Shown here: one piece after another, positions 1,941 to 62,300 of the stretch
How positions within the stretch are numbered: position 1 is the stretch's first letter
Layout: every line of letters starts with the position of its first letter
NCBI RefSeq assembly: GCF_964355755.1
Contig: NC_092670.1
Location: 13,949,201-14,013,200, forward strand
Direction: 5' to 3'
Length of the DNA stretch: 64,000 bases
Source of the DNA: Antedon mediterranea
Lineage: Eukaryota > Echinodermata > Crinoidea > Comatulida > Antedonidae
Made by a program: the position numbers and the translations under genes
Notes under the pieces: model-generated
What the model was told of the DNA's origin: nothing
Database searches by the model: none
The model's input: only the letters and a program-made list of their open reading frames with translations

Positions 1941-2387
1941 ATGTGTGTGAAGTATTGGATACTGATGAAATAAATATGTGACGAACCTATAAGATAAACA
2001 AAAAAAAAAGGGGAGAAAATAGTAATGGGTTCACAGAAAAACAAGACATACTACTTATCAAGTTTAGCAATTGAAAACAATTATCTGTCAAATCAATACT
2101 AATTCACTTTAAGCAATTAGTTAACGGAAGAAAATATCTTACTACAGTACTATACTCACGAAAGTACGAGTAGTACTTTAAAAATCGCACTTTTTACTCA
2201 ATAGTGTCCAGATGGAGGAGGAGGAGAAAATGAGTAAGTCCTAGACTCGGGTACCCCGAGTAAAAAGAGACAGTATACCAGAATCCATACGGTAAAATGA
2301 AATATTTCTCTAAATGATGTACTCACAAAATAGAACTTGTAGGCATATCCGCACAAAAAGATAAATAAATAATTAGGCTTATCCGTA
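1941..2387. repeat. Direct duplication, copy 1 (intact empty-site copy)
   Basis: This 447-bp unit is repeated immediately downstream. Its left part (1941-2172) recurs at 2388-2618 with a one-base difference in an A-run. Its right part (2173-2387) recurs at 9916-10130 with the same length. Inside this copy the sequence gagTAgtac is uninterrupted. In the second copy a 7.3-kb element sits at exactly that TA. No coding content is evident. Confidence 0.92.
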
Positions 2388-2639
2388 ATGTGTGTGAAGT
2401 ATTGGATACTGATGAAATAAATATGTGACGAACCTATAAGATAAACAAAAAAAAAGGGGAGAAAATAGTAATGGGTTCACAGAAAAACAAGACATACTAC
2501 TTATCAAGTTTAGCAATTGAAAACAATTATCTGTCAAATCAATACTAATTCACTTTAAGCAATTAGTTAACGGAAGAAAATATCTTACTACAGTACTATA
2601 CTCACGAAAGTACGAGTACACAGCAAAATTTGAAATTCT

Positions 2640-4480
2640 AAGCAAGAAAAAAAAATCTTGTTTTAAGAAAAAATTCTTAAAATAAGTATTTTTTTTCTTG
2701 TCAAGATTTAAAATTACTTAAAACAAGAAATAATTTTCTAGAAAAGACACATTTTCTTAAATTAAGTTTTGCAATATTCTTGAAAATGCTTATTACAAGA
2801 AATATTTTACTTAAAATAAGAAGTCAATATCATTCTCTTCTTATTAAGAATAGTTTTGCTTAAAACAAGATTTGAAAATACTTAATTTGAAAAGTATTTT
2901 ACTTAAAATAAGAAATCTATATTATATTTATCCCTATCAAGAATAATTTTTCTTAAATCAAGATTGATGAATTATAAAAATTACTTAAAACAATCAATAT
3001 TTTTCTAGGTAAGACAAAGTTTCTTAAATTAGGTTTCGCAATAGTCTTGAAAATACTTGTTTTGAGAAATATTTTACTTAAAATAAGAAGTCAATTTCAC
3101 ACTACCCTTATCAAGATTATTTTTACTTGAATCAAGATTCGCAATATTCTTGAAAATGCTTATTACAAGAAATATTTTACTTAAAATAAGAAGTCAATAT
3201 CATTCTCTTCTTATTAAGAATAGTTTTGCTTAAAACAAGATTTGAAAATACTTAATTTGAAAAGTATTTTACTTAAAATAAGAAATCAATATTATATTTA
3301 TCCCTATCAAGAATAATTTTTCTTAAATCAAGATTGATGAATTCTAAAAATTACTTAAAACAATAAATATTTTTCTAGGTAAGACAAAGTTTCTTAAATT
3401 AGGTTTCGCAATATTCTTAAAAATACTTATTTTGAGAAATGTTTTACTTAAAATAAGAAGTCAATATCATACTATCTTATCAAGACTATTTTTGCTTAAA
3501 TTGAGATTCGCAATATTTTAAAAAATACTTATTTTGAGAAATGTTTTACTTAAAATAAGAAGTCAATATCATACTATCTTATCAAGACTATTTTTACTTG
3601 AATCAAGATTCGCAATATTCTTAAAAATACTTATTTCGAGAAATGTTTTACTTAAAATAAGAAGTCAATATCATACTATCTTATCAAGACTATTTTTGCT
3701 TAAATTGAGATTCGCAATATTTAAAAAAATACTTATTTTGAAAAATGTTTTACTTAAAATAAGAAGTCAATATCATACTATCCTATCAAGACTATTTTTG
3801 CTTGAATTCAGATTCGCAATATTCTGATTTTGAGAAATGTTTTACTTAAAATAAGAAGTCAATATCATACTATCTTATCAAGACTATTTTTACTTGAATC
3901 AAGATTCGCAATATTCTTAAAAATACTTATTTCGAGAAATGTTTTACTTAAAATAAGAAGTCAATATCATACTATCTTATCAAGACTATTTTTGCTTAAA
4001 TTGAGATTCGCAATATTTAAAAAAATACTTATTTTGAAAAATGTTTTACTTAAAATAAGAAGTCAATATCATACTATCCTATCAAGACTATTTTTGCTTG
4101 AATTCAGATTCGCAATATTCTGATTTTGAGAAATGTTTTACTTAAAATAAGAAGTCAATATCATACTATCTTATCAAGACTATTTTTACTTGAATCAAGA
4201 TTCGCAATATTCTTTAAAATACTTATTTTGAGAAATGTTTTACTTACAATAAGAAGTCAATATCATACTATCTTATCAAGACTATTTTTGCTTAAATTGA
4301 GATTCGCAATATTTTTAAAAATACTTATTTTGAGAAATGTTTTACTTAAGATAAGAAGTCAATATCATACTACAGTATATCATATCAAGACTTTTTTGCT
4401 TGAATTGAAGTCAATTCTATTTTAATATTCTTAAAAATACTTATTTTGAGAAATGTTTTACTTAAAATAGATTGTCAATA
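2640..4480. repeat. Left subterminal tandem array of the 7.3-kb transposon
   Basis: Units of roughly 100 bp repeat a pattern containing TTACTTAAAATAAGAAG, a run of TCAATATCAT and a TTGCTTAAATTGAGATTCGCAATAT-like segment. From 3534 onward three units form a 296-bp higher-order repeat, with matching positions at 3534, 3830 and 4126. Open frames across this stretch come from repeat periodicity and lack a credible protein. The core word CTTAAAATAAG is the reverse complement of the CTTATTTTAAG seen in the right array. Confidence 0.88.
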
Positions 4481-5266
4481 TCCTTATATTCACACAACGG
4501 TAGAGCAGTTAGCACTTCAGTTTCAACTGATGAAAGAATCTGGGTAATCAAACTGTTTGTGCTTTGAATAATCGATTGCACTGCAACCTAAAGAAAATAA
4601 TATTGATTTAATATTTTTTATATTCAAGTTTTAATATATTTAAAAACTAAGTTGTGCTTTAGTTGGGGAGCTATGCAGCCTAACAAAAAAAATGTTATTT
4701 GTAACAATGAAATTGGTCACAAAAAAATGCAACATAAACTTAGAGTGTATAATGCCTAGGCCTAGGCCTAGTACCCAAGTCCTATAGTTACTATAGCTAA
4801 TAGTCCTGTATAATAACAGTACCAGCAAGGCCTAGGAAATAGACGTATTTCTCTAATAAAAAATAGTTTAAAATGCATAATTGTTGTAATTTTAAAGCAA
4901 AATGGCTTACCTGTGGAATCTTGTTTCTCTCCTTTAATTTTTGTAGAAAGAAATCAGCATTTTTTATACTATTATCTGCTTGTTCATCCTCTAGTTAGTA
5001 GGCCTTCTTGCTGAGCATCAACAAGATAATTAATATTAAACAATCATTAACAGTATAACAATACTAGAATTATCACTACTACTATCGTCAGTTGATAACT
5101 CATCCCCGTTATAATAGTTTTTTTCTTCATTAACTTCGTCAGTCTCCTAGTCTAGGCCTAGTTCTACTTCATCCTCAATTGGCATCCTAGTTTTCTCCAG
5201 GCATACTTATATACTGATGTTTCCATCGTCAACTGCAGGAGGTTGCCGATTGTTATACTCGTCCTT
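4462..5266 (-). pseudogene. Decayed minus-strand gene inside the transposon
   Basis: Two clean exon-like blocks are visible. 4911-4988 reads 26 codons beginning DEQADNSIKNADFFLQKL and ends at a GT donor. 4462-4587 reads VAVQSIIQSTNSLITQ onward to a TAA stop, after a pyrimidine-rich AG acceptor; both are phase 0. Upstream (about 5020-5266) acidic and serine-rich coding remnants such as ELSTDDSSSDN are broken by in-frame stops (for example TAG between GLD and ETDEV). The FLxKLKE...PQ pattern recalls uncharacterised mobile-element ORFs in invertebrate genomes, from memory only. I infer a transposon gene that is no longer intact; its function is unknown. Confidence 0.55.
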
Positions 5267-5269
5267 AAA

Positions 5270-5536
5270 ATGGCGTCTTATGACATGCTTGTAAAACGAA
5301 TTGTAAATTCCAAAGCTTGCCGGGCAGCGAACCACCAATTCCACATGTTACTCGAAAATTCGGAGTATTTCCATGAATTGAATTATAATGCCTTAGCAAA
5401 TAGGGTAGCAAATACTGTACCTACTTCAGTTTACTGGCACCAACTTATCGCTTTTTTTCGGACTGCAACAAACATGTGTCATTATTATTGTCTGTCGTAT
5501 TACTGTTGGTCCAGACGTTTTATAGATTTACTTTAA
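5270..5536 (+). CDS. Hypothetical 88-aa ORF in transposon interior
   Basis: It opens with ATG in a fair context (AAAATGG) and begins MASYDMLVKRIVNSKACR. The first 60 codons have a mixed, protein-like composition; the last 20 turn cysteine- and tyrosine-rich and may be read-through past a missed splice site. It starts four bases from the end of the minus-strand pseudogene, so the element may have carried two divergent genes. I do not recognise the family. It could be a first exon or chance. Confidence 0.35.
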   Translation: MASYDMLVKRIVNSKACRAANHQFHMLLENSEYFHELNYNALANRVANTVPTSVYWHQLIAFFRTATNMCHYYCLSYYCWSRRFIDLL

Positions 5537-5799
5537 TCACCATGGAGGTTTATACCTCCATGCTTTAACGTTGAGCAGTATAATGACCTTATACATTCTG
5601 GGTAAAAGGCCAGCGATAAATTTTTGGTTATAGTTGAAAAACAACACTGTGTGGTCGATGACCTAGCTCCCGGCGGGATCATGGCCAACGGTTTTTTAAA
5701 GTAATCATTCAAAATCTAGAGTTTGTAAGTAAAAGACACCTTTCATCGCAATTTATTTATTAAATGCTTCAATAGGCCTAGTAAGATTAGTCTAATATA

Positions 5800-7675
5800 A
5801 TGTCGAAGGAAGACGCTTTGTTGAAGATCCGAGAAATAGATGAAGAAGTGGCCAACATGTTACGCATTTTAACAGGTTCGTAGGCCTAATAATTATATTT
5901 TAATCTGCCAGCAGTCTAGGCTAGGCCTAGCTAGCCTAGGCTCCTTCCTAGTTAGTAATACTGTAGGCCTGGAACTAGTAGGTCTAGGCTAGCCTACTAT
6001 GCCTGTACTGACGGACAGGTGTATAGGTTTAGCTTAGCATTTTAGTTCAGACATTGACAGAGGGGACAAATATTGTCGGACCTATTTCAGCTAGGCTAGG
6101 CTAGGTATAAGGAAGGCCTAATAATAGATAATACAATTATAATGTAACAGTTATTTTGCAATGTAGCCATGAAATATCTACGAAGGATTATATTATATAC
6201 ACATATTTCAATGAAAAATATAATGACATTTAAAAACACTTCTTTATATTTAATTAATTGTACACACTAAGTAATTCCCGAAGTGATCACATCGATATTG
6301 AAACTTAATGTTTTTAACTCTAAATTTTTAAAAAAACATACTAAAAAAACAAACAAAAAACATACGTACTGCATAACTAAAATTGTTATATTAAATTTCT
6401 TTTTAAAAAACTGTGTTATTTACAATATCTTAAATTATTTGTTAGGTAATTGAAGAAGTTCGAAGGATACTAATTATTACTAGGCAAAGAGGAATGAAAT
6501 ACAAAAGAAAGCTTTTTAAAAAAGTGCTTAGCAAATTTTTCCAAAGAAGAGAATAATATAGTTTATTTTGGTATTTTAAAGAGAAACACCAGTCCTCCAT
6601 CTGGTAAGTACAGTGTATGTTTTTGTACTTTTATCTATTCATAAATATTTTTATAATGGACCAATGGTAGTGAGGAAAATACGTGTACATATTGTGTACG
6701 TATTTTTAACAGCTTGGTTCGACTCAAGCTAGTGTCATGCACTCCTCCCTTTGACAACTAAAATTAAATAAATGACTTATGAATATTAATTTTTGACATA
6801 TTAATGCTCTCCTGGCCAGCCCACCCTTTCCCCTTCCTTTTACATTGACCACCTACAAAACTGTAGGCTACATTATTAAAAATTTGAGCTACAGTATATC
6901 AAGTTTATGTCCATACATTATTCCACTCATTTAAATAAATTTATATAATATAATGTTTTCAATTTGTTATTTTTGGTTAGGTTCAAAGATAACCCATATG
7001 TTGTCAAATCTGTCAAACATATTTGTTGGGAAAAACTCATCAAAAAAAGTCTGCCGACCTTGAAGGTATTTAGTGTTTTTTTAAATTTAAAATACAAGTA
7101 ACATTATGTACATTAAAAAAAAATATCTTAAAGTGTTTTTTTAAAATCAAATTTATCTTAGCTTAAAATTCGAGGTATATACTATGTTTACAATAATTTA
7201 TTAAAATCAAACAATTAAACAAAATTTACATTTAATTGTATGATTGTTATTATAAACATTGATACAGAATAAAAACATCAATCAGGATTGAGCACCGTTT
7301 TGCGTATTGTCTTCCTAAATAGTAATATTAAAAATAAATTTAGACCCTAATAATTTAACTAAAAATAATAGATACAGCCAGGCCTGTCTTTGGGATCGGT
7401 ATAAACAGGGCAAAGTTTGTGATTAAAAAGTTCAAATGCATATTCCACCCACCCTTATGTCTTATAATGTAAAATTATTCTTACCACCGTTCTAATATTG
7501 CGTCATGTTTTTGTGTTTACCGCCCCAGATATAGGACTCTAAAACCACACCGTACCCAATTAGTTGATGATGTTACACATATTTTAAATACAGTAATAAC
7601 TAAAACTATATTAATCTCTTTTCATTTTTAGGAACATGAATAAAGATCCAGAATCCTGGTCTTCACGCCGATCAG
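5800..7675 (+). other. Exon-like blocks on the plus strand of the transposon
   Basis: Three blocks look like exons. 5800-5875 starts MSKEDALLKIREIDEEV and ends ACAG before GT. 6981-7065 follows a TTGGTTAG acceptor and ends GAAG before GT; one frame is fully open. 7632-7675 follows a TTTTTAG acceptor and ends before GTAATA. I could not link them into one frame without meeting stops, so the gene is either decayed or its exons are misread. The charged first block could form a coiled coil. Family unknown. Confidence 0.3.
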
Positions 7676-8359
7676 GTAATATGCCGGTATTGCTTTTGTA
7701 CACAGAAATGGCCTACATTAAAGTTTAGCAAACAATTCTAACTACAAAGAAAGCAAAATTAGATGAGGCTCTAGTTACTCTCCTCTCCACTTTTTACCTT
7801 CTGGATTTCGATTATCCAAAATGAAAAGAAGTAGGCCTCACTATCCTTTAACAGTTAGTGATTTGTGATGAAAACACACCTGTACACTTGACAAAGGCTG
7901 TTGAATCATCATTAGTATACCTTAATAAATTTAAAGACACCTAATAGTTTAAAGCCCAGGTGCGGGAGAAGAATTTTACGAAATTTGTATTTTACCATTT
8001 TAATGTTTTTAAGTTTTCTTTTGATGGCATTTTATTATTAATAAAAACAAGTTTGTTTTAAAGAAGTTGTATATATTATTGTACCTAATGTCATGTAAAT
8101 TGTAGTTCTTAATGAAAATAACAGTATTGTTAATATTATGTTTTATAAAATTCTTGAATTTATTTGTTTAAGTAAAATATTTCTTAAAATGAGTATTCAT
8201 TTATCGTTCTTAAAATAAATTTTTAATGATTTATATTTTATAGAATTCTTGTTTCAAGCAATTTTTTTCCCAATATAAGTAAGAATTTACGAATTTTAAT
8301 TTGATAGAATTCTTGTTTCAAGCAATACTTTTCTTAAAATAAGTAAACATTTACTGGTT

Positions 8360-9640
8360 TTTATTTGATAGACTTCTTGTTTACTTATTTTAAAAAAAGT
8401 TTTGCTTGAAACAAGAATTCTACAAATAAAAATCGGAATATTCTTACTTATTTTAAGAAATATATTGCTTGAAACAAGAAAACTAAAAATATAAATCGGA
8501 ATATTCTTACTTATTTTAAGAAAAATATTGCTTAAAACAAGAATTCTAAAAAATACAAACCGGAATATTCTTACTTATTTTAAGAAAAATATTGCTTGAA
8601 ACAAGAATTCTACAAATAAAAATCGGAATATTCTTACTTATTTTAAGAAATATATTGCTTGAAACAAGAATTCAAAAAATACAAATCGGAATATTCTTAC
8701 TTATTTTAAGAAAAATATTGCTTAAAACAAGAATTCAAAAAATACAAATCGGAATATTCTTACTTATTTTAAGAAAAATATTGCTTGAAACAAGAATTCA
8801 AAAAATACAAATCGGAATATTCTTACTTATTTTAAGAAAAATAATGCTTGAAACAAGAATTCAAAAAATACAAATCGGAATATTCTTACTTATTTTAAGA
8901 AATATATTCCTTGAAACAAGAATATTAAAATTAAAAATCGGAATATTCTTACTTATTTTAAGAAAAATATTGCTTAAAACAAGAATTCTAAAAAATACAA
9001 ATCGGAATATTCTTACTTATTTTAAGAAAAATATTGCTTGAAACAAGAATTCTACAAATAAAAATCGGAATATTCTTACTTATTTTAAGAAATATTTTGC
9101 TTGAAACAAGAATTCAAAAAAATACAAATCGGAATATTCTTACTTATTTTAAGAAATATTTTGCTTGAAACAAGAATTAAAAAAATACAAATCGGAATAT
9201 TCTTACTTATTTTAAGAAAACTATTGCTTGAAACAAGAATTCAAAAAATACAAATCGGAATATTCTTACTTATTTTAAGAAAAATATTGCTTGAAACAAG
9301 AATTCAAAAAATAAAAATCGGAATATTCTTACTTATTTTAAGAAATATCTTGCTTGAAACAAGAATTCAAAAAAATACAAATCGGAATATTCTTACTTAT
9401 TTTAAGAAAAATATTGCTTAAAACAAGAATTCTATAAAATACAAATCGGAATATTCTTACTTATTTTAAGAAATATATTGCTTGAAACAAGAATTCTATA
9501 AAATACAAATCGGAATATTCTTACTTATTTTAAGAAATATATTGCTTGAAACAAGAATTCAAAAAAATACAAATCGGAATATTCTTACTTATTTTAAGAA
9601 AAATATTGCTTGAAACAAGAATTCTATTTTAAAAAATCGA
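8360..9640. repeat. Right subterminal tandem array of the 7.3-kb transposon (63-bp units)
   Basis: About 20 units of 60-63 bp each contain CGGAATATTCTTACTTATTT, TAAGAAAAATATTGC and TTGAAACAAGAATTC. The 63-bp spacing keeps reading frames open (8592-9041, 9101-9421), giving a repetitive ETRIQKIQIGIFLLILR peptide that I regard as an artefact of period and AT bias. Downstream (9640-9913) diverged CTTGGTAAGAA-type half-repeats lead to the terminus. Confidence 0.88.
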
Positions 9641-10716
9641 TAAATTGTTACTTATTTTAAGGCAGATACTGCTTAAAACAAGAATGAAAAAAGCAATTAA
9701 ATTCTTGGTAAGAATATTGTTCTTAAAGTATTATTTCTTGGTAAGAATAATTTTCTTGATAAGAATTTGTGTGATTCTTGTTAAGAATTTTACGATTCTT
9801 GGTAAGCCAAAAAGTATTGAAATACGGACAAGTCAAAATTTACTTGTTTCAAGAAATATTTTGCTTGAAACAAGTTTTTTTTTTCTTAAAACAAGAATCA
9901 GAATTTTGCTGTGTAGTACTTTAAAAATCGCACTTTTTACTCAATAGTGTCCAGATGGAGGAGGAGGAGAAAATGAGTAAGTCCTAGACTCGGGTACCCC
10001 GAGTAAAAAGAGACAGTATACCAGAATCCATACGGTAAAATGAAATATTTCTCTAAATGATGTACTCACAAAATAGAACTTGTAGGCATATCCGCACAAA
10101 AAGATAAATAAATAATTAGGCTTATCCGTAAGGTAATCAATCTATTCATCAGTTACAGTTGCACCGTTCACTATCACGTTACATTTTCAGTATTTCGAGT
10201 GTTGCTTGGTTGTGCATTTCTTTCGTTTGCATTGGTACTATGAAGCAGACTATTAATATGGGCGTTAACTTTCTTGTCTGATGTTTAGAAATGTATATTG
10301 TACATAGTTTGCATTATGGCACCGTTGCGCAACTTAATGTTCTTAACATACCTTACTCCACGACGACGATTCTCTAATTGAAAACAAAACCGCCCATTCT
10401 GTATTGAATAGTGGGACTAGTTCATCGTCATTTTAATTTCACATATAGGCTAATTTTTTTTTATAAATTGTCATAGTATATCTTACAAAAAATAAAAAAA
10501 ACCGCTTTTGCTCAATTTTAAAAAATACGTATGGATATGAAAACGCAATAATTATGACGTATGGAAGGCAAACATGGTTTACCGTTTGAGATAGAAACTA
10601 TACACAAAAACGGATGAAGGAATGTTTTTAAATCCTCGGAGCACAACATTGTTGAGAGCCGAGCATTATCGTATCGTACCAAGTTCCCATCTATTAGTTA
10701 CAGTAAGTTGTTTATT

Positions 10717-20244: not shown

Positions 20245-20598
20245 ATGGATGCATTTCGATTAAGGATAAATATACTTGTTTATATATCGTTTTTACTGAT
20301 ACTCTTGGGCGTCTATCGGGCAAATGCTGTACCATATAGACGGGATGTACTCCCAGCTACAGACAGTATACGAACCGGTACGGATAACAATTATACAGTT
20401 ATTTTTAATTATTTATCAACAGAAGATTCTATTGATGTCAATACAACTGTTGCTTATGTAACTACTAATAATGGTAATGGTAATAATACATCTAGTTCTA
20501 TGTACGTTATTATAATCATGACAGTTCTTGTAATATCTGCTCTTGTGATGCTTGCTGGGTATTTATGCCATAAAGGAGAAGCTTATCGACAATGGTGA
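20245..20598 (+). CDS. Small predicted single-pass membrane glycoprotein, unknown family
   Basis: The chosen ATG has a perfect context (ACCATGG) and gives 117 aa. Residues 7-27 are a hydrophobic signal-peptide core (INILVYISFLLILLGVY), then ANAVPYRR, a plausible cleavage region with a basic RR site after it. The ectodomain (about 30-90) is Asn/Thr-rich with N-glycosylation sequons NYT, NTT and NTS. About residues 91-110 are a transmembrane helix (YVIIIMTVLVISALVMLAG), leaving a short tail, CHKGEAYRQW. The stop TGA (20596-20598) lies inside the first unit of the 39-bp minisatellite, so the tail is repeat-encoded. It could be a complete one-exon gene, or an exon ending at GCTGG before GTATTT (about 20558). 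I do not recognise the family. Confidence 0.6.
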   Translation: MDAFRLRINILVYISFLLILLGVYRANAVPYRRDVLPATDSIRTGTDNNYTVIFNYLSTEDSIDVNTTVAYVTTNNGNGNNTSSSMYVIIIMTVLVISALVMLAGYLCHKGEAYRQW

Positions 20599-21649
20599 TA
20601 TTTCTGCCATAAAGGAGAAGCTTATCGCCAATGGTAATATTTCTGCCATAAAGGAGAAGCTTATTGCCAATGGTGATGTTTCTGCCATAAAGGAGAAGCT
20701 TATCGCCAATGGTGATATTTCTGCCATAAAGGAGAAGCTTATCGACAATGGTGATATTTCTGCCATAAAGAAGAAGCTTATCGCCAATGGTAATACTTCT
20801 GCCATAAAGGAGAAGCTTATCGCCAATGGTGATATTTCTGCCATAAAGGAGAAGCTTATCGCCAATGATGATATTTCTGCCATAAAAGAGAACTTATCGC
20901 CAATGGTGCTATTTCTGCCATAAAGAAGAAGCTTATCGCAAATGGTGATATTTCTGCCATAAAGGAAAAGCTTATCGCCAATGGTGATATTTCTGCCATA
21001 AAGAAGAAGCTTATCGCCAATGGTAATACTTCTGCCATAAAAGAGAAGCTTATCGCCAATGGTGATATTTCTGCCATAAAGGAGAAGCTTATCGCCAATG
21101 ATGATATTTCTGCCATAAAGGAGAACTTATCGCCAATGGTGCTATTTCTGCCATAAAGAAGAAGCTTATCGCAAATGGTGATATTTCTGCCATAAAGGAA
21201 AAGCTTATCGCCAATGGTGATATTTCTGCCATAAAGAAGAAGCTTATCGCCAATGGTAATACTTCTGCCGTAAAGGAGAAGCTTATCTCAAATGGTGATA
21301 TTTCTGCCATAAAGAAGAAGCTTATCGCCAATGATGATATTTCTGCCATAAAGGAGAAGCGTATCGCCAATGGTGATATTTCTGCCATAAAGAGGAAGCT
21401 AATCGCCAATGATAATATTTCTGCCATAAAGAAGAAGCTTATCGCCAATGGTGATATTTCTGCCATAAAGAAGAAGCTTATCGCCAATGGTGATATTTCT
21501 GCCATAAAGGAGAAGCTTATCGCCAATGGTGATATTTCTGCCATAAAGGAGAAGCTTATCGCCAATGGTGATATTTCTGCCATAAGGAGGAAGCTAATCG
21601 CCAATGATGATATTTCTGCCATAAAGGAGAAGCTTATCGACAATGGTGA
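20558..21649. repeat. 39-bp minisatellite, about 28 units
   Basis: The unit is GATATTTCTGCCATAAAGGA followed by GAAGCTTATCGCCAATGGT, 39 bp or 13 codons. One plus frame reads ISAIKEKLIANGD repeatedly (20552-20923) and one minus frame reads MAEISPLAISFSF repeatedly. Units differ by point changes (AAGGAG/AAGAAG, GGT/GAT) and occasional 38-bp units that shift the frame. Six-unit blocks recur every 233 bp (AATACTTCTGCC at 20792, 21025 and 21258), a higher-order repeat. The array begins at the C-terminal codons of the membrane-protein ORF. Confidence 0.95.
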
Positions 21650-22686
21650 TATTTATTTATACATGTACTCTACACGGTCTATTTCCCATCGCTGCTGATG
21701 ATATCCATATCACACGGAACTTAACCGCTTGAATCTGAGATAATGTTGTAATAAATGAAAAGAATAATTAAGCCGGAACTGCACGACACATCTGGATTCC
21801 AATTAATCATTTCAGAACGAGAGTATAATGGAGACCAAAGCCGAGTCGTTAATGTTAACATTACAATATGCATAATAGATATCTATTTCTCGATGTGTTC
21901 ATACCGACCTTAAGAACTCGCCACCCGTTGCTTATCTTGTCATATCAGTAAAACGAGAGAATGCGGAGGCGAATAAAAAGTAGGCAACAGACGAAGATGT
22001 ATTGGTGATGACATGTAGGGCATACAACGATGTACAAAATAGACAGTGACAGATTGCATTTAAGCTGTAAGAACATAAGCATATTGGCAATATTTGTTTA
22101 TCGTGAAAATGTATTTTTGCTATGACGAATTAAATGGGATGTCTGATGATACTTTCTTATTATACACGGTGAAGTTCTTTTGATTGAAGCTGTTTTCACT
22201 CCTAAAGAGTGAGTTTTCACTCTTAAAGAGTGAGTTTTCACTCTTGTAAAGTGATCAAAATTGCATTCGCTCTTTTCTAAGGTTATACTCTTTTTTAAGA
22301 ATAACACTTAAGCACACTCCTAAAAAGAGTGAAAATTCACTCTAAACGATTTGATTTTTACTCTCTTCTGTTAGTTCAAAGTATGGGGATGTAATGCTAT
22401 GAAACGAACACATTAAACACACAGGAATGGTTGCGGTGGTGGTATAGGCCTATTTGACTTTATTTATTTATTTATATTATTTTGTGTACCGGTTATTCTG
22501 CTGGTTTGTTAGCTTATTTGTTTTTTTGAATAAATTATGATCTGATCTGTATCCATGTGGTATAATTTATGTTTTAATCAGCACATTTTTACATCAACGT
22601 CATCAGCGAATTACCTGTACCGTATCTTTACATAGTATAACTTGTCCAGTACTCATGTATTAGACCTACATTGGCGACGGTGTGTA
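21650..22686. other. Non-coding; cluster of ACTCTT/AAGAGT words
   Basis: At 22196-22370 the words TTCACTCTTAAAGAGTGA, CACTCCTAAAGAGTGA, AAGAGTGAAAATTCACTC and related forms recur in both orientations at short spacing, giving several small palindromes. Nothing else was recognised. Confidence 0.6.
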
Positions 22687-39172: not shown

Positions 39173-45722
<6,550 letters not shown>

Positions 45723-45771
45723 CTTTACGTAATTGCAGCTATAACAATACTAACAGTGCAAAGGCGTTTAT
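45723..45771 (-). other. 5' UTR part of TRPC-A exon with upstream 3' splice site
   Basis: Directly upstream of the TRPC-A start codon the minus strand reads a T-rich tract ending TTTTTTCAG at 45772-45780. This is a strong acceptor. It implies a separate non-coding first exon farther right and places the promoter away from the coding exon. Confidence 0.6.
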
Positions 45772-56018: not shown

Positions 56019-59000
56019 TCAAACGTAATCAGGGTTTTCTAATTCAGACGCATGTTCTAAGTATGCCGAATTCACATGCCCTCCGTTCATTTGTGTAGGT
56101 GTATAAGTAATTTCTATATCCCTTGAATCGTTAGATGACGTTCGTGAAATTGCCATATCATCACGAAGTTCTTCTATTCGGTTGCTCAAGTTTCCCATTG
56201 TCTGGACAATCAAAGCTAGCTTATTCTCAATACCCTGTACGTCATCATTTGGTAAATCTGGTTGTTTTGCAGACAATGTTTTTGGTTGGCGGGAAAGTTG
56301 TTCCATTAACTCGAAGCGAAGACTTGAAATGTCTTTCTTTATCTCGTCAAGTTCACCTACAAAATAATAGCTGATAATTAATTTCAATTAAAATAGAAGC
56401 TAAGTCTAAAGCTAGTAAGATAAGTAGAACAGTGCAGGCCTACGTGTCATTTCGTATGCGAGGACAGAATAACCAACATGCGCCACCAACCTTCGTTTAC
56501 TTCATCGTTTGCCTTATCCTGTTGCAGCTTAAACAGATAACGTTTGACAACCGATTTCATTATTGCCTGAAAATAGAGGGGACAATTAGCAGAAAAATCT
56601 TACAGACTGTTAGTACTATATTAATTATCATAATCTGCGAGATAGGCATATTATATTAGAGTTAAATATGAGTATCTAAGTAAAACATATTGCCTCTCTT
56701 TTGCAAGAGTCTCTTCCGAATAATGGGTTTCCCAAGAGGGGTTGTACTGTGTAAATAATGCATTATAAGTAAATGCTCCTTAGTTAAATGTAAATATTAG
56801 TTTGTAGAAACCACACACAAAATAATTAGGACAATGGATATTGTCAATAAAGATTTGAAATCTTAATTACGTTCAACTAACTTTTATGGAAACAACAATT
56901 GTGAAAAAACAATAGTATTGCTAATATGCTAAAAATAGAATGTACTGTTCAGGAAAAAAAAGAATGAATTGTGTTAAGTACTGTATTGTAATTGAGTGGC
57001 CTATTTCAAATGAAAAATAGAGAAGTGCCAACATTTTCCTAATAATAATAACAATCAAAATTGATATAGCGCCAATTCCAAAAGCATTATCACAAAGGCG
57101 CATTGTATTCTGCAATTTGCTAAATAAATGAGTTACAGTAATCTGACATTAGTAAGAAATGGCGCGAACGAGATGTGATGGAAATCTTGTACAGACCATC
57201 CCATCATTAGAATTAAAGATAGAGAGGGGATCAGGGTCTATTTTAGATATGTTTTTATGTTATAAATAAAAATATAAAAAACCTGATGATCGTCTTCTAC
57301 ATTAGGACGAAATCTTGAACCCATGACATTAAAAACTCCGTTTCTCTAAAAATAGAAAAATCGAGGAAACATTATTTTTCGTAATAAACTAGTCCTGATA
57401 GTCATATTTCCACTCTAATAAGATGCTGTAGGCATTTCGTGTTAAAAGCGAAAAAATATGTGTTTTATGGTAATTTTGGGGTGCTGAATTCAAATCTGCT
57501 GTTTACCCGGCTCAATTTTTAGATCTTCACCCTTAAAATGTGAAAACAAAATGGCCGCCATTTCAGACTTATTTTGGCTTATAACTTGACTTTTAAGTGA
57601 CGTAGCAAGTTAAAAATGGTGTCTGTGCCCATGTTTGTGATACTGAGGATTCCAAATATATTGTTATTAAAGTTGTAAATATTCTATTTCAGCCGCCATG
57701 TTGAAATCCAAGATGGCCGCCATTTTAAACGTATTTTGGCTTATAACTTGACTTTTAAGTGACGTAGCAAGTTAAAAATGGTGTCTATACCTATGTTTGT
57801 GATAGTGAAGATTCCAAATATATTGTTATTAAAGTTGTAAATGTTCTATTTCAGCCGCCATGTTGAAATCCAAGATGGCTGCCATTTTAAACGTATTTTG
57901 GCTTATAACTTGAGTTTTAAGTGACGTAGCAAGTTAAAGATGGTTTCTATACCTATGTTTGTGATACTGAGGATTCCAAATATATTGTTATGAAAGTTGT
58001 AAATATTCTTTTTCGGCCGCCATGTTGAAATCCAAGATGGCCGCCATCGTTTTAAACGTATTTTGGCTTATAACTTGACTTTTAATTAACATAGCAAGTT
58101 AAAAATGGTTTTTATACCATAAAAGTATGGTTGCACCTAGAACAAATTGCAACAGAATTTCTTTTTGTTTTGTCTAGTTGATATGGTCCAAATTAACATC
58201 ATATCCAATGTTTACCAAAATCGGACATCGGGAAGAAGTGGGTTCATTAGCATAAATTAAAAAGGCCATTTACCATTTTGAAGCCTTGTATATTATCTCC
58301 TTAACGGTTTAACTTATAGACCACCTACTGTAAGTGCATTACGAGTAGTTATAAATGTATAGGATATTTTAATTATCATACGTACCTATATATTATGTTA
58401 TAACTGCTTAAATGACATTATCCTATGCTAAAAAATGTAGAAACATTCTGTTGAAATGAACATCATATCCAAAATTTACCAAAATCGGACATCAAGAAGG
58501 GGGTTAATTAGCATAAATTCAAAATGGCTGCTATTTACTGTACCATTTTGAAGCTCCGCATCTCCTTAACAGTACATCCAAAGTACATATAGATAAAAAT
58601 TGTAATTGTTGGCGCCGTCAAAATACTTATGGAAACCTTCAAAGCTAAAATGTCTTTCTTTTGCCAGGAATCAAAGCTATCCAAAAGTTTCACCTTATAG
58701 GCACAGCAAATCTACTGGCTTTTCTGATGTCTTGTTAATTTTTGGACTGAACAGAAGATGTATGTTTTGAATTCATAAGGGATAGGTGTAATTGATTAAA
58801 ACTTAAACGACGCGACCAGTTGATACAGTTGGCCGGCTGCCGAGACTAAACACGCAGGTTGCGTAGTTGATATGTGACGTAACAACTCGCGGAACATGGC
58901 TGCTGAGACGTCAATATACTATTATTTTTTGCCCTTGTTTAGTGTTTATTCTTAAAATTCATGAAAGTGATATAGCCTATCGTGTGCGGCCCATCAAGAA

Positions 59001-59383: not shown

Positions 59384-62300
59384 TATATAAATCCAAAGGT
59401 AAATTACTGAAAAAATGTCAATGCTGTGGGTATCATGTGGCTGGATCTCAATGGAGATACAAAAAAAACCGAAAAACTAAAGCAAAACGATAAAGTAAAA
59501 CAGCCAGAAAAGTTAGCAGAGCTTTCGGGCAACACTAGCCCTTCATCTGTAAGGCCTATATATATATGTGTGTGTGTGTGTGTTTAAAATAGGCGTCATA
59601 TTGGATTTCAACATGGCGGCTGTTTACAACTTTAATAACAATATATTTGGAATCCTCAGTCTCACAAACATAGGTATAGACATCGTTTTTAACTTTCTAT
59701 GTTACTTATAAGTCAAGTTATAAGCCAAAATACGTTTTAAATGGCGGCCATCTTGGATTTCAACATGGCGGCTGAAATAGAATATTTACAACTTTTTAGT
59801 AACAATATATTTAGAATCTTCAGTATCACAAACATAGGTAAAGACATCATTTTTAACCTACTATGTTACTTAAAAGTCAAGTTAATAAGGCAAAATACGT
59901 TTTAAATGGCGGCCATCTTGGATTTCAACATGGCGGCTGAAATAGAACATTTACAACTTTCATAACAATATATTTGGAATCCTCAGTATCACAAACATAG
60001 GTATAGAAACCATCTTTAACTTGCTACGTCACTTAAAACTCAAGTTATAAGTCAAAATACGTTTTAAATGGCGGCCATCTTGGATTTTAACATGGCGGCT
60101 GAAATAGAACATTTACAACTTTAATAACAATATATTTGGAATCTTCACTATCACAAACATAGGTATAGACACCATTTTTAACTTGCTACGTCACTTAGAA
60201 GTCAAGTTATAAGCCAAAATAAGTCTGAAATGGCGGCCATTTTGTTTTTCACATTTTAAGGGTGAAGATCTAAAAATTGAGCCGGGTAAACAGCAGATTT
60301 GAATTCAGCACCCCGAAATTACCCTAAAACACATGTTTTTTTTTTGCTTTTAACACGAAATGCCTACAGCATTTCATTTTTCTCAAATCTGGACTAGTCT
60401 ATAAAACGTGTTTCCGCGTAAAATAATACTTAAGCTCTTGCAGCAGCCCAAATAATAATACTCGTAATGATTATGATACCCGCGACAACAATTCAATTGA
60501 ATTGGTATCTTAGTCGCTACTGTATTATGCGATACCATGGTGATTTCACTTAGGCTCAAGCTTACCCATGGCATTGTTAATGTTTCCAAAATCCATGTGA
60601 AGTTAAGCGTCAAGCAAGCGTATCTTATACTTCTACATCTTACATTTTTCACAATTTCGTAATTTTAAGGCACCACTGCTGCTCTGTAGTATATAGCCCT
60701 GTTACTTTCCAACCTACTTTATGTCTATACTTTGAATGAATTGAAATAAAATAAATATCAATCGTAACAAAAAGGTAGCTCTCAACTTACTCTGTCAGAA
60801 ATTGACGATCGGGCTCGTGTTCTCATTGGTATACCATGTGTCGAATCTTTCCTTTTGATTTGATTTGCAAACCACTTGTAGATGTATAAAAACGATTTCG
60901 GACTTGGAATTAAATTAAACGGAATTGGTAAAGTAGCGTTATGGTCGAAGAAAGAAATCCATAATTGTGCTCGAGCAAACTTCCACTCCACATCCTCATC
61001 GTTCTGTCAAAGGAGATAAATAGTAATAATAAAGTTACATAATTATACCGAAGCATTCTTTAGTGTTATTCATTTAAAAATATATTGTTCCTCAAATTTA
61101 AATCTTTAGCGGTACGGTAAAAAATACTACATTTTCAACTAATAACCAACAATTACTAATTTAGGTATCCCTCCAATTAAAGACCGCTTTATTGCCGCCC
61201 TGAATGATCGCCTATCTTATCTTATACCATTACCAATATTTCTGTTCTTTAGTATCATAGCTCATGTCGTTTTATGGGTGGTCCAATTTTAAAGCTTGTA
61301 GCTTATTTTGATGTCCCTCCACACTTCTTTGCATTCTATAATTATACTCTGTATTCAATGAACAGACAAATAAATAAACAGACAAACAAACCAGTTCCCT
61401 TCCAATTAGAGACTCCTTCCAATTAGAGACCAAGGTTTTGGTGGAACTAACTAAACATTTTCATTTAAATGGATAGGACAGGAAAGCAAGATAACCATTC
61501 TGACATTTAATTTGCCTCTAAATATAGTGCACTTTTTTATTTTTAAAAGGAGGGTAACTTAAGACCACTTCTGTTGCCAGTCTAGAAGGAACTAAGCCAA
61601 ATAAAAGTGGTATTTAATTTTGGAGGGAGACCTGTAACTGATGGTTTGTGCTGTAAACTTGCCTCGATCTCCTGATATGAGTTAGACATCATAGCAATTA
61701 GCATATTCAGCATTACCAGAACCATCACGACATGATAAACAGCGAATAGGATTGTACCGACTACATTTGTTATGTTGTAATTATCATCATCAGCAGACGG
61801 TTGCACTATGGGATCATCTTTACCAACTAACCCGAATAAAGCCCAGAACAATGTTAAAAACGTACTGCTAATTCTGAAGACAAGAAAAGCACAAATGATA
61901 CTGATTATAAAAATTCCCAGAAAAAAATTTTTTTCTAAAACTGTTAGCGTCTGACGTGTTATTCACTTCGACCAAAATTGGATAAAAAACAATTATTTAC
62001 CTGAAAAACATTTAAAATTCTCAGACAATTGGGGTTTGCTTCAAATTAAATTTACTACCAAATCAGGGATGTCAGTCTATTCTTCAAAGCTCTAATTATG
62101 AGTTATATTACCAAGTACATCATCTGTTTATTACGGACAAAATTTCTACTTACGAACCAAATGCCTTTTCAACGCCGTCACTCTTCCCGCTGTCTAACGG
62201 ATAATACCAATACAAGTTATACATTGCACAGAGAAACGCTACTAAAACAAGACCAAACACAATTCCGAAGCGTAGAATGTCACCAAGCATACGACCTAGA

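Follow-up and report, generated by a model that had tools for sequence, protein, structure and literature searches.

The Spm/dSpm elements have CAC ends, subterminal repeats and two genes, and their defective derivatives are moved in trans. A C(2)C/H(3)H signature has been given for EnSpm/CACTA, Mirage, Chapaev, and Transib transposons, which mostly have CA..TG ends and duplications of 2-5 bp (PMC12730594). Plant CACTA elements generate a 3-bp duplication (PMC4158355), and the CACTA-related TRC elements of animals generate 2-bp duplications (PMC1636069; PMC4298943). The window analyzed here, a whole stretch of 64,000 nucleotides (C1:13949201-14013200, forward strand) in a 354-Mb genome, seemingly that of an animal, with 11 large contigs, contains an element that most probably arose by deletion from a CACTA/EnSpm-related cut-and-paste transposon (CMC clade); it is non-autonomous and has spread recently. 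We place it among the CACTA/EnSpm-related elements of animals because of its CAC..GTG ends, 2-bp duplication, subterminal arrays, and a transposase N terminus common to CMC-type transposases of the genome; since the element lacks the catalytic domain, its assignment to the clade rests on the N terminus, the ends and the duplication size.

Like plant CACTA/EnSpm elements, the family represented in the window has CAC ends, subterminal repeats, a two-gene organization and defective derivatives, but its duplications are 2 bp rather than 3 bp, its termini read CACAG rather than CACTA, and a direct sequence match to the plant elements is absent. With the TRC elements (SmTRC1; Spongebob/EnSpm-4N1_HM of Hydra) it shares the 2-bp duplication, a Transposase_21-related transposase clade, and the occurrence of non-autonomous derivatives. 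It differs from them in that TRC terminal inverted repeats (TIRs) start with CCC instead of CAC, the TIR is 12 bp long as opposed to 54 bp in SmTRC1, the transposase remnant belongs to a different, zinc-finger lineage, and the palindrome arrays are very large. The EnSpm-like ESTA elements of fungi (PMC12730594) are also of CMC type with 2-bp duplications, and TA is the most frequent duplication here. ESTA elements, however, are described with TA duplications and carry TET/JBP, whereas 20 of 53 copies of the window family have non-TA duplications; this comparison with ESTA is by description only.

The locus and its empty unit

A 447-bp unit (1941-2387) recurs in the window split into two parts, 2388-2618 and 9916-10130 (Table 1). 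All 446 aligned bases are identical, and the sole difference between the two copies is one 1-bp gap in a poly-A run. No occurrence of the unit beyond this locus was found in DNA searches of the genome, the reach of which was limited. The insert between the two halves is 7,295 bp long (2619-9913) and is preceded by the target TA (2617-2618), a second copy of which follows it at 9914-9915. The simplest order of events is that the 447-bp unit was duplicated in tandem and the element then entered the second copy, which would have left the first as an empty site. In the initial annotation, the neighboring empty unit had served to fix both ends of the transposon, and the exact ends and the match between units uphold this description; copies extending beyond 2619 or 9913, which it had named as grounds for doubt, were not seen among 53 paired copies.

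The identity of the units, which differ only by a homopolymer gap, could also mean that the empty unit at this one locus is a duplication created falsely when the assembly joined an empty allele to a filled one. Assemblies would not usually err by joining two alleles head to tail over as little as 447 bp, however, and the ends and duplications are independently confirmed at 52 other loci, so we regard a false duplication as rather unlikely; an artefact of this kind would not affect the family-level result. Cut-and-paste transposons excise, and the first unit might accordingly be an excision footprint instead of a copy that was never filled, but it contains one TA and zero leftover bases and is identical to the joined flanks, which makes a footprint very improbable. 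With the empty unit preserved beside the filled one, insertion is neatly demonstrated without recourse to an outgroup.

Several other features were noted in the window. At 1641-1815 a perfect 38-bp inverted repeat encloses a second one of 42 bp (90%); this compact hairpin is possibly a small MITE. Positions 20560-21654 hold a 39-bp minisatellite of 28 copies that is open in several frames, and part of a TRP-type ion channel, with TRP_2 and ankyrin repeats, is encoded by an exon at 44910-45749 on the minus strand.

Table 1. Features of the element and of the duplicated unit that surrounds it, in window coordinates.
Feature	Position	Strand	Basis
First copy of 447-bp tandem unit, uninterrupted (empty site)	1941..2387	.	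Identity to 2388-2618 + 9916-10130
Second unit copy, left part, ends in TA target (2617-2618)	2388..2618	.	
Whole element, 7,295 bp	2619..9913	+	Ends exactly common to other copies
Left TIR, CACAGCAAAATT	2619..2630	+	
Left subterminal array of ~102-bp units with 18 exact sites of the 11-bp palindrome	2650..4482	.	
Transposase exon remnant VAVQSIIQSTNSLITQILSSVETEV.. (VAVQSIIQST..), TTTCTTTAG splice acceptor before	4486..4587	-	
Transposase exon remnant ..ADFFLQKLKERNKIPQ (..FFLQKLKERNKIPQ), then GTAAGC splice donor	4911..4994	-	
Transposase exon remnant, C2H2 zinc finger, PNFRVTCGIGG / CPASFGIYNSFYKHVIRRH, broken by 4-bp insertion	5210..5399	-	
Second-gene remnants, divergent; exon-like pieces 5800-5877, 6498-6605, 6982-7065, 7756-7940	5800..7940	+	C-terminal match
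Right subterminal array of 63-bp units with 47 exact sites of the palindrome	8230..9895	.	
Right TIR (AATTTTGCTGTG on +)	9902..9913	-	
Target-site duplication TA, second copy	9914..9915	.	
Second unit copy, right part	9916..10130	.	Alignment to first unit

Ends and target sites across the family

The termini of the element are CACAGCAAAATT and its reverse complement AATTTTGCTGTG, and six further full copies start and stop at the same bases as 2619 and 9913. A genome-wide pattern search in which the flanking bases were printed returned 61 left ends and 59 right ends. These ends pair up into 53 copies, which are 3.5-11.7 kb long with a median of 7.04 kb; the letters of most family copies were read at the ends only. 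Every one of these 53 has an exact 2-bp duplication, none has a 3-bp duplication, and the 28 copies that were also read directly in letters all have matching 2-bp duplications. This is an unusually clean record of target choice: TA occurs 33 times, CA 11 times, TG 5 times, TT twice, and CG and AG once each.

Pyrimidine-purine (YR) steps, which deform more readily than any other step in DNA, make up 50 of the 53 target sites. An early impression that every duplication was YR came from a partial sample and was set aside once the full table was available. A C or G directly precedes the duplication in 30/53 copies (p 5e-4 versus 33.5% G+C). Because the duplication is CA, TG, TT, CG or AG in 20 of the 53, the element is not TA-specific. 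The TA duplication reported initially is thus correct for the window copy, where it is exactly 2 bp, but does not describe the family.

Arrays, gene remnants and intact homologues

The large subterminal arrays, also recognized in the initial annotation, consist of ~102-bp units on the left and 63-bp units on the right, and one type of 11-bp palindrome, CTTRAAAYAAG or CTTRTTTYAAG, is common to both. The element carries 65 exact palindrome sites, 18 on the left and 47 on the right; its core and the other 56.7 kb of the window are both free of them, and a first-order Markov simulation of the arrays gave 0.08 sites on average. Spacing in the regular 63-bp right array is 21 and 42 bp, and the palindromes would therefore sit on one face of the helix. 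We infer that they are transposase-binding sites. Two further arrays in the window (57547-58118 and 59623-60251), seemingly of one 162-bp unit, lie in opposite orientation ~1.5 kb apart and are possibly the subterminal arrays of another element.

Outside the arrays the element has no long ORF, and no Pfam domain over the cut-off was found in the core. The initial annotation had reported no recognizable transposase, and no intact one is present, but three collinear, frameshifted exon-like remnants of a zinc-finger transposase can be recognized on the minus strand of the core. An old copy on C8 is without the 4 extra bases that break the zinc finger, which is intact there and reads CGIGGCPASF; as an autonomous source this copy was rejected, being still deleted, with its left end missing. 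The transposase gene stops where the left array begins, and its catalytic part has therefore been lost. The remnants of the second gene end in LDEALVTLLSTFYLLDFDYPK.. and match the second gene beside the intact C2 transposase, with a C-terminal match of E 5e-7 in a single comparison and only 0.014 in an unbiased scan. Given the transposase and second-gene matches, capture of a host gene (Pack-type) is unnecessary as an explanation of the core.

Intact transposases were found in the same genome using a hand-written transposase consensus as query, the hits themselves being genomic. They comprise an 843-aa ORF on C2 (L093) and an 828-aa ORF on C3 (L094). The spliced three-exon remnant is collinear with the N termini of both (E 5e-9 and 6e-7, respectively), and its alignment to the 843-aa ORF is gapless across the predicted intron; it gave no alignment (E 6.3) with a Transposase_21 control transposase of another lineage. 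When 1,595 ORFs were scanned, without bias, with the N terminus of the C2 protein, the C8 zinc-finger exon ranked first (E 1e-4), followed by a hit at 0.37. The N-terminal zinc finger and the LLKL..IPQ region of both intact proteins align with the remnants in the window, as does the C terminus of the second gene of L093. In contrast, arrays and termini are not in common within the stretches read, in which the ends of the C2 and C3 elements were not reached, and the second gene of the intact homologues lies downstream on the same strand, whereas the two genes of the window element are divergent. In the alignment of the two intact ORFs, a candidate for the second catalytic D is followed by C-x2-C, H-x3-H, and a candidate for the last E; in the 843-aa ORF these are D383, C404/C407, H621/H625, and E645. 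The 843-aa ORF also aligns collinearly with the genome's Transposase_21-type protein, but this match does not reach significance (E 0.35 by BLASTP; E 0.029 with a probability of 1.7% by hhalign).

Searches by end patterns, zinc-finger pattern, and protein, with copies partly read through, found no autonomous copy with CACAGCAAAATT ends and an intact transposase. Extra DNA in the longer copies L027, L028, and L033/L034 (11.7 kb) consists of insertions of other sequence and not of a transposase. The stretches of ~4 kb upstream of nine further related transposases are without the element's ends or palindrome arrays, and a more distant C3 match is a decayed, interrupted fragment. A PF02992 search led to another CACTA-like family (intact 684-aa ORF, CCCAGCTAAC end, AACGTTT arrays) that does not share the ends and palindrome arrays of the window element. 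This CACTA-related element of at least 13.7 kb is present in two copies that are 99.6% identical (L077/L079, C4:23784643 onward, and L078/L080 on C8); its ORF is of Transposase_21 type, and it resembles TRC elements, with the Hydra terminus CCCAGCCAAC resembling its own.

Classification, mechanism and spread

CMC elements have CA..TG (typically CAC..GTG) termini with short TIRs, duplicate 2-5 bp of target (2 bp in the case of animal TRC), and carry subterminal repeats of a common short motif at both ends. Here the TIR is 12 bp in all copies, the duplication is exactly 2 bp in 53/53, and the palindrome occurs 18 times on the left and 47 times on the right. Between the second D and the last E, the DDE transposases of the clade have C(2)C and H(3-4)H motifs; these are found in the homologues L093/L094, this region being deleted from the element itself. 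The 2-bp duplication in all copies led us to reject PIF/Harbinger, hAT, and piggyBac elements (with 3-bp, 8-bp, and TTAA duplications, respectively), and Helitrons, which have neither a target-site duplication nor a TIR, were rejected since the element has both.

The presence of the window copy and 33/53 family copies in TA would fit a TA-inserting transposon of the Tc1/mariner type that had lost its transposase, but the exact non-TA duplications violate the strict TA rule and therefore exclude Tc1/mariner, strictly defined. As the exon remnants match a zinc-finger CMC-type transposase, the ends start with CAC, and the arrays are typical of CACTA elements, this assignment is extremely improbable. 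A new group at superfamily level, choosing its dinucleotide targets in its own way, could account for the core without Pfam domains over the cut-off, for matching transposases that Pfam barely recognizes (DUF4218 E 0.16), and for the pronounced YR preference with enrichment of C/G before the duplication. Such a group is nevertheless quite unlikely given the C(2)C and H(3)H signature, the weak collinearity with a Transposase_21 protein, and CAC..GTG ends and a 2-bp duplication that fall within the clade's known range. The non-TA duplications, the ends, the arrays, and the CMC-type N terminus likewise speak against the possible new, non-canonical TA-inserting group of the initial annotation.

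For a CMC-type element of this kind, a related element would supply the transposase in trans. The transposase would bind the 11-bp palindromes through its zinc fingers and pair the ends, cut at CAC/GTG, and insert the element with a 2-bp stagger in a cut-and-paste reaction. The element itself is of an ordinary kind. We raise, tentatively and with considerable doubt, the idea that it belongs to a distinct and undescribed lineage of animal transposons of CMC type in which a zinc-finger transposase recognizes long arrays of 11-bp palindromes at 21-bp multiples and selects nearly any pyrimidine-purine step (TA>CA/TG>CG) in place of a fixed dinucleotide.

Dozens of copies with 95-100% identity turned up when the genome was searched with the ends and the core, and the window element is one of ~60 recent, near-identical copies. 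Within a 1.85-kb stretch of the core, divergence is 0.3-0.8% among young copies and about 2% for the older C8 copy, and the spread is therefore recent. The family shows how a large defective element in which probable transposase-binding arrays predominate can proliferate in the absence of a transposase of its own. Its copies are clustered, with 34 pairs within 500 kb versus 4.8 expected and a maximum of 13 in 2,000 simulations, perhaps through local hopping or retention in particular regions. Strong clusters lie at C5:12.87-14.44 Mb, C9:12.5-17.8 Mb, and C11:12.7-16.0 Mb. The C6 copy (L028) carries a nested insertion of ~0.8 kb with CCGGCGGCTCAACTTG-type inverted ends and apparently an 8-bp duplication.
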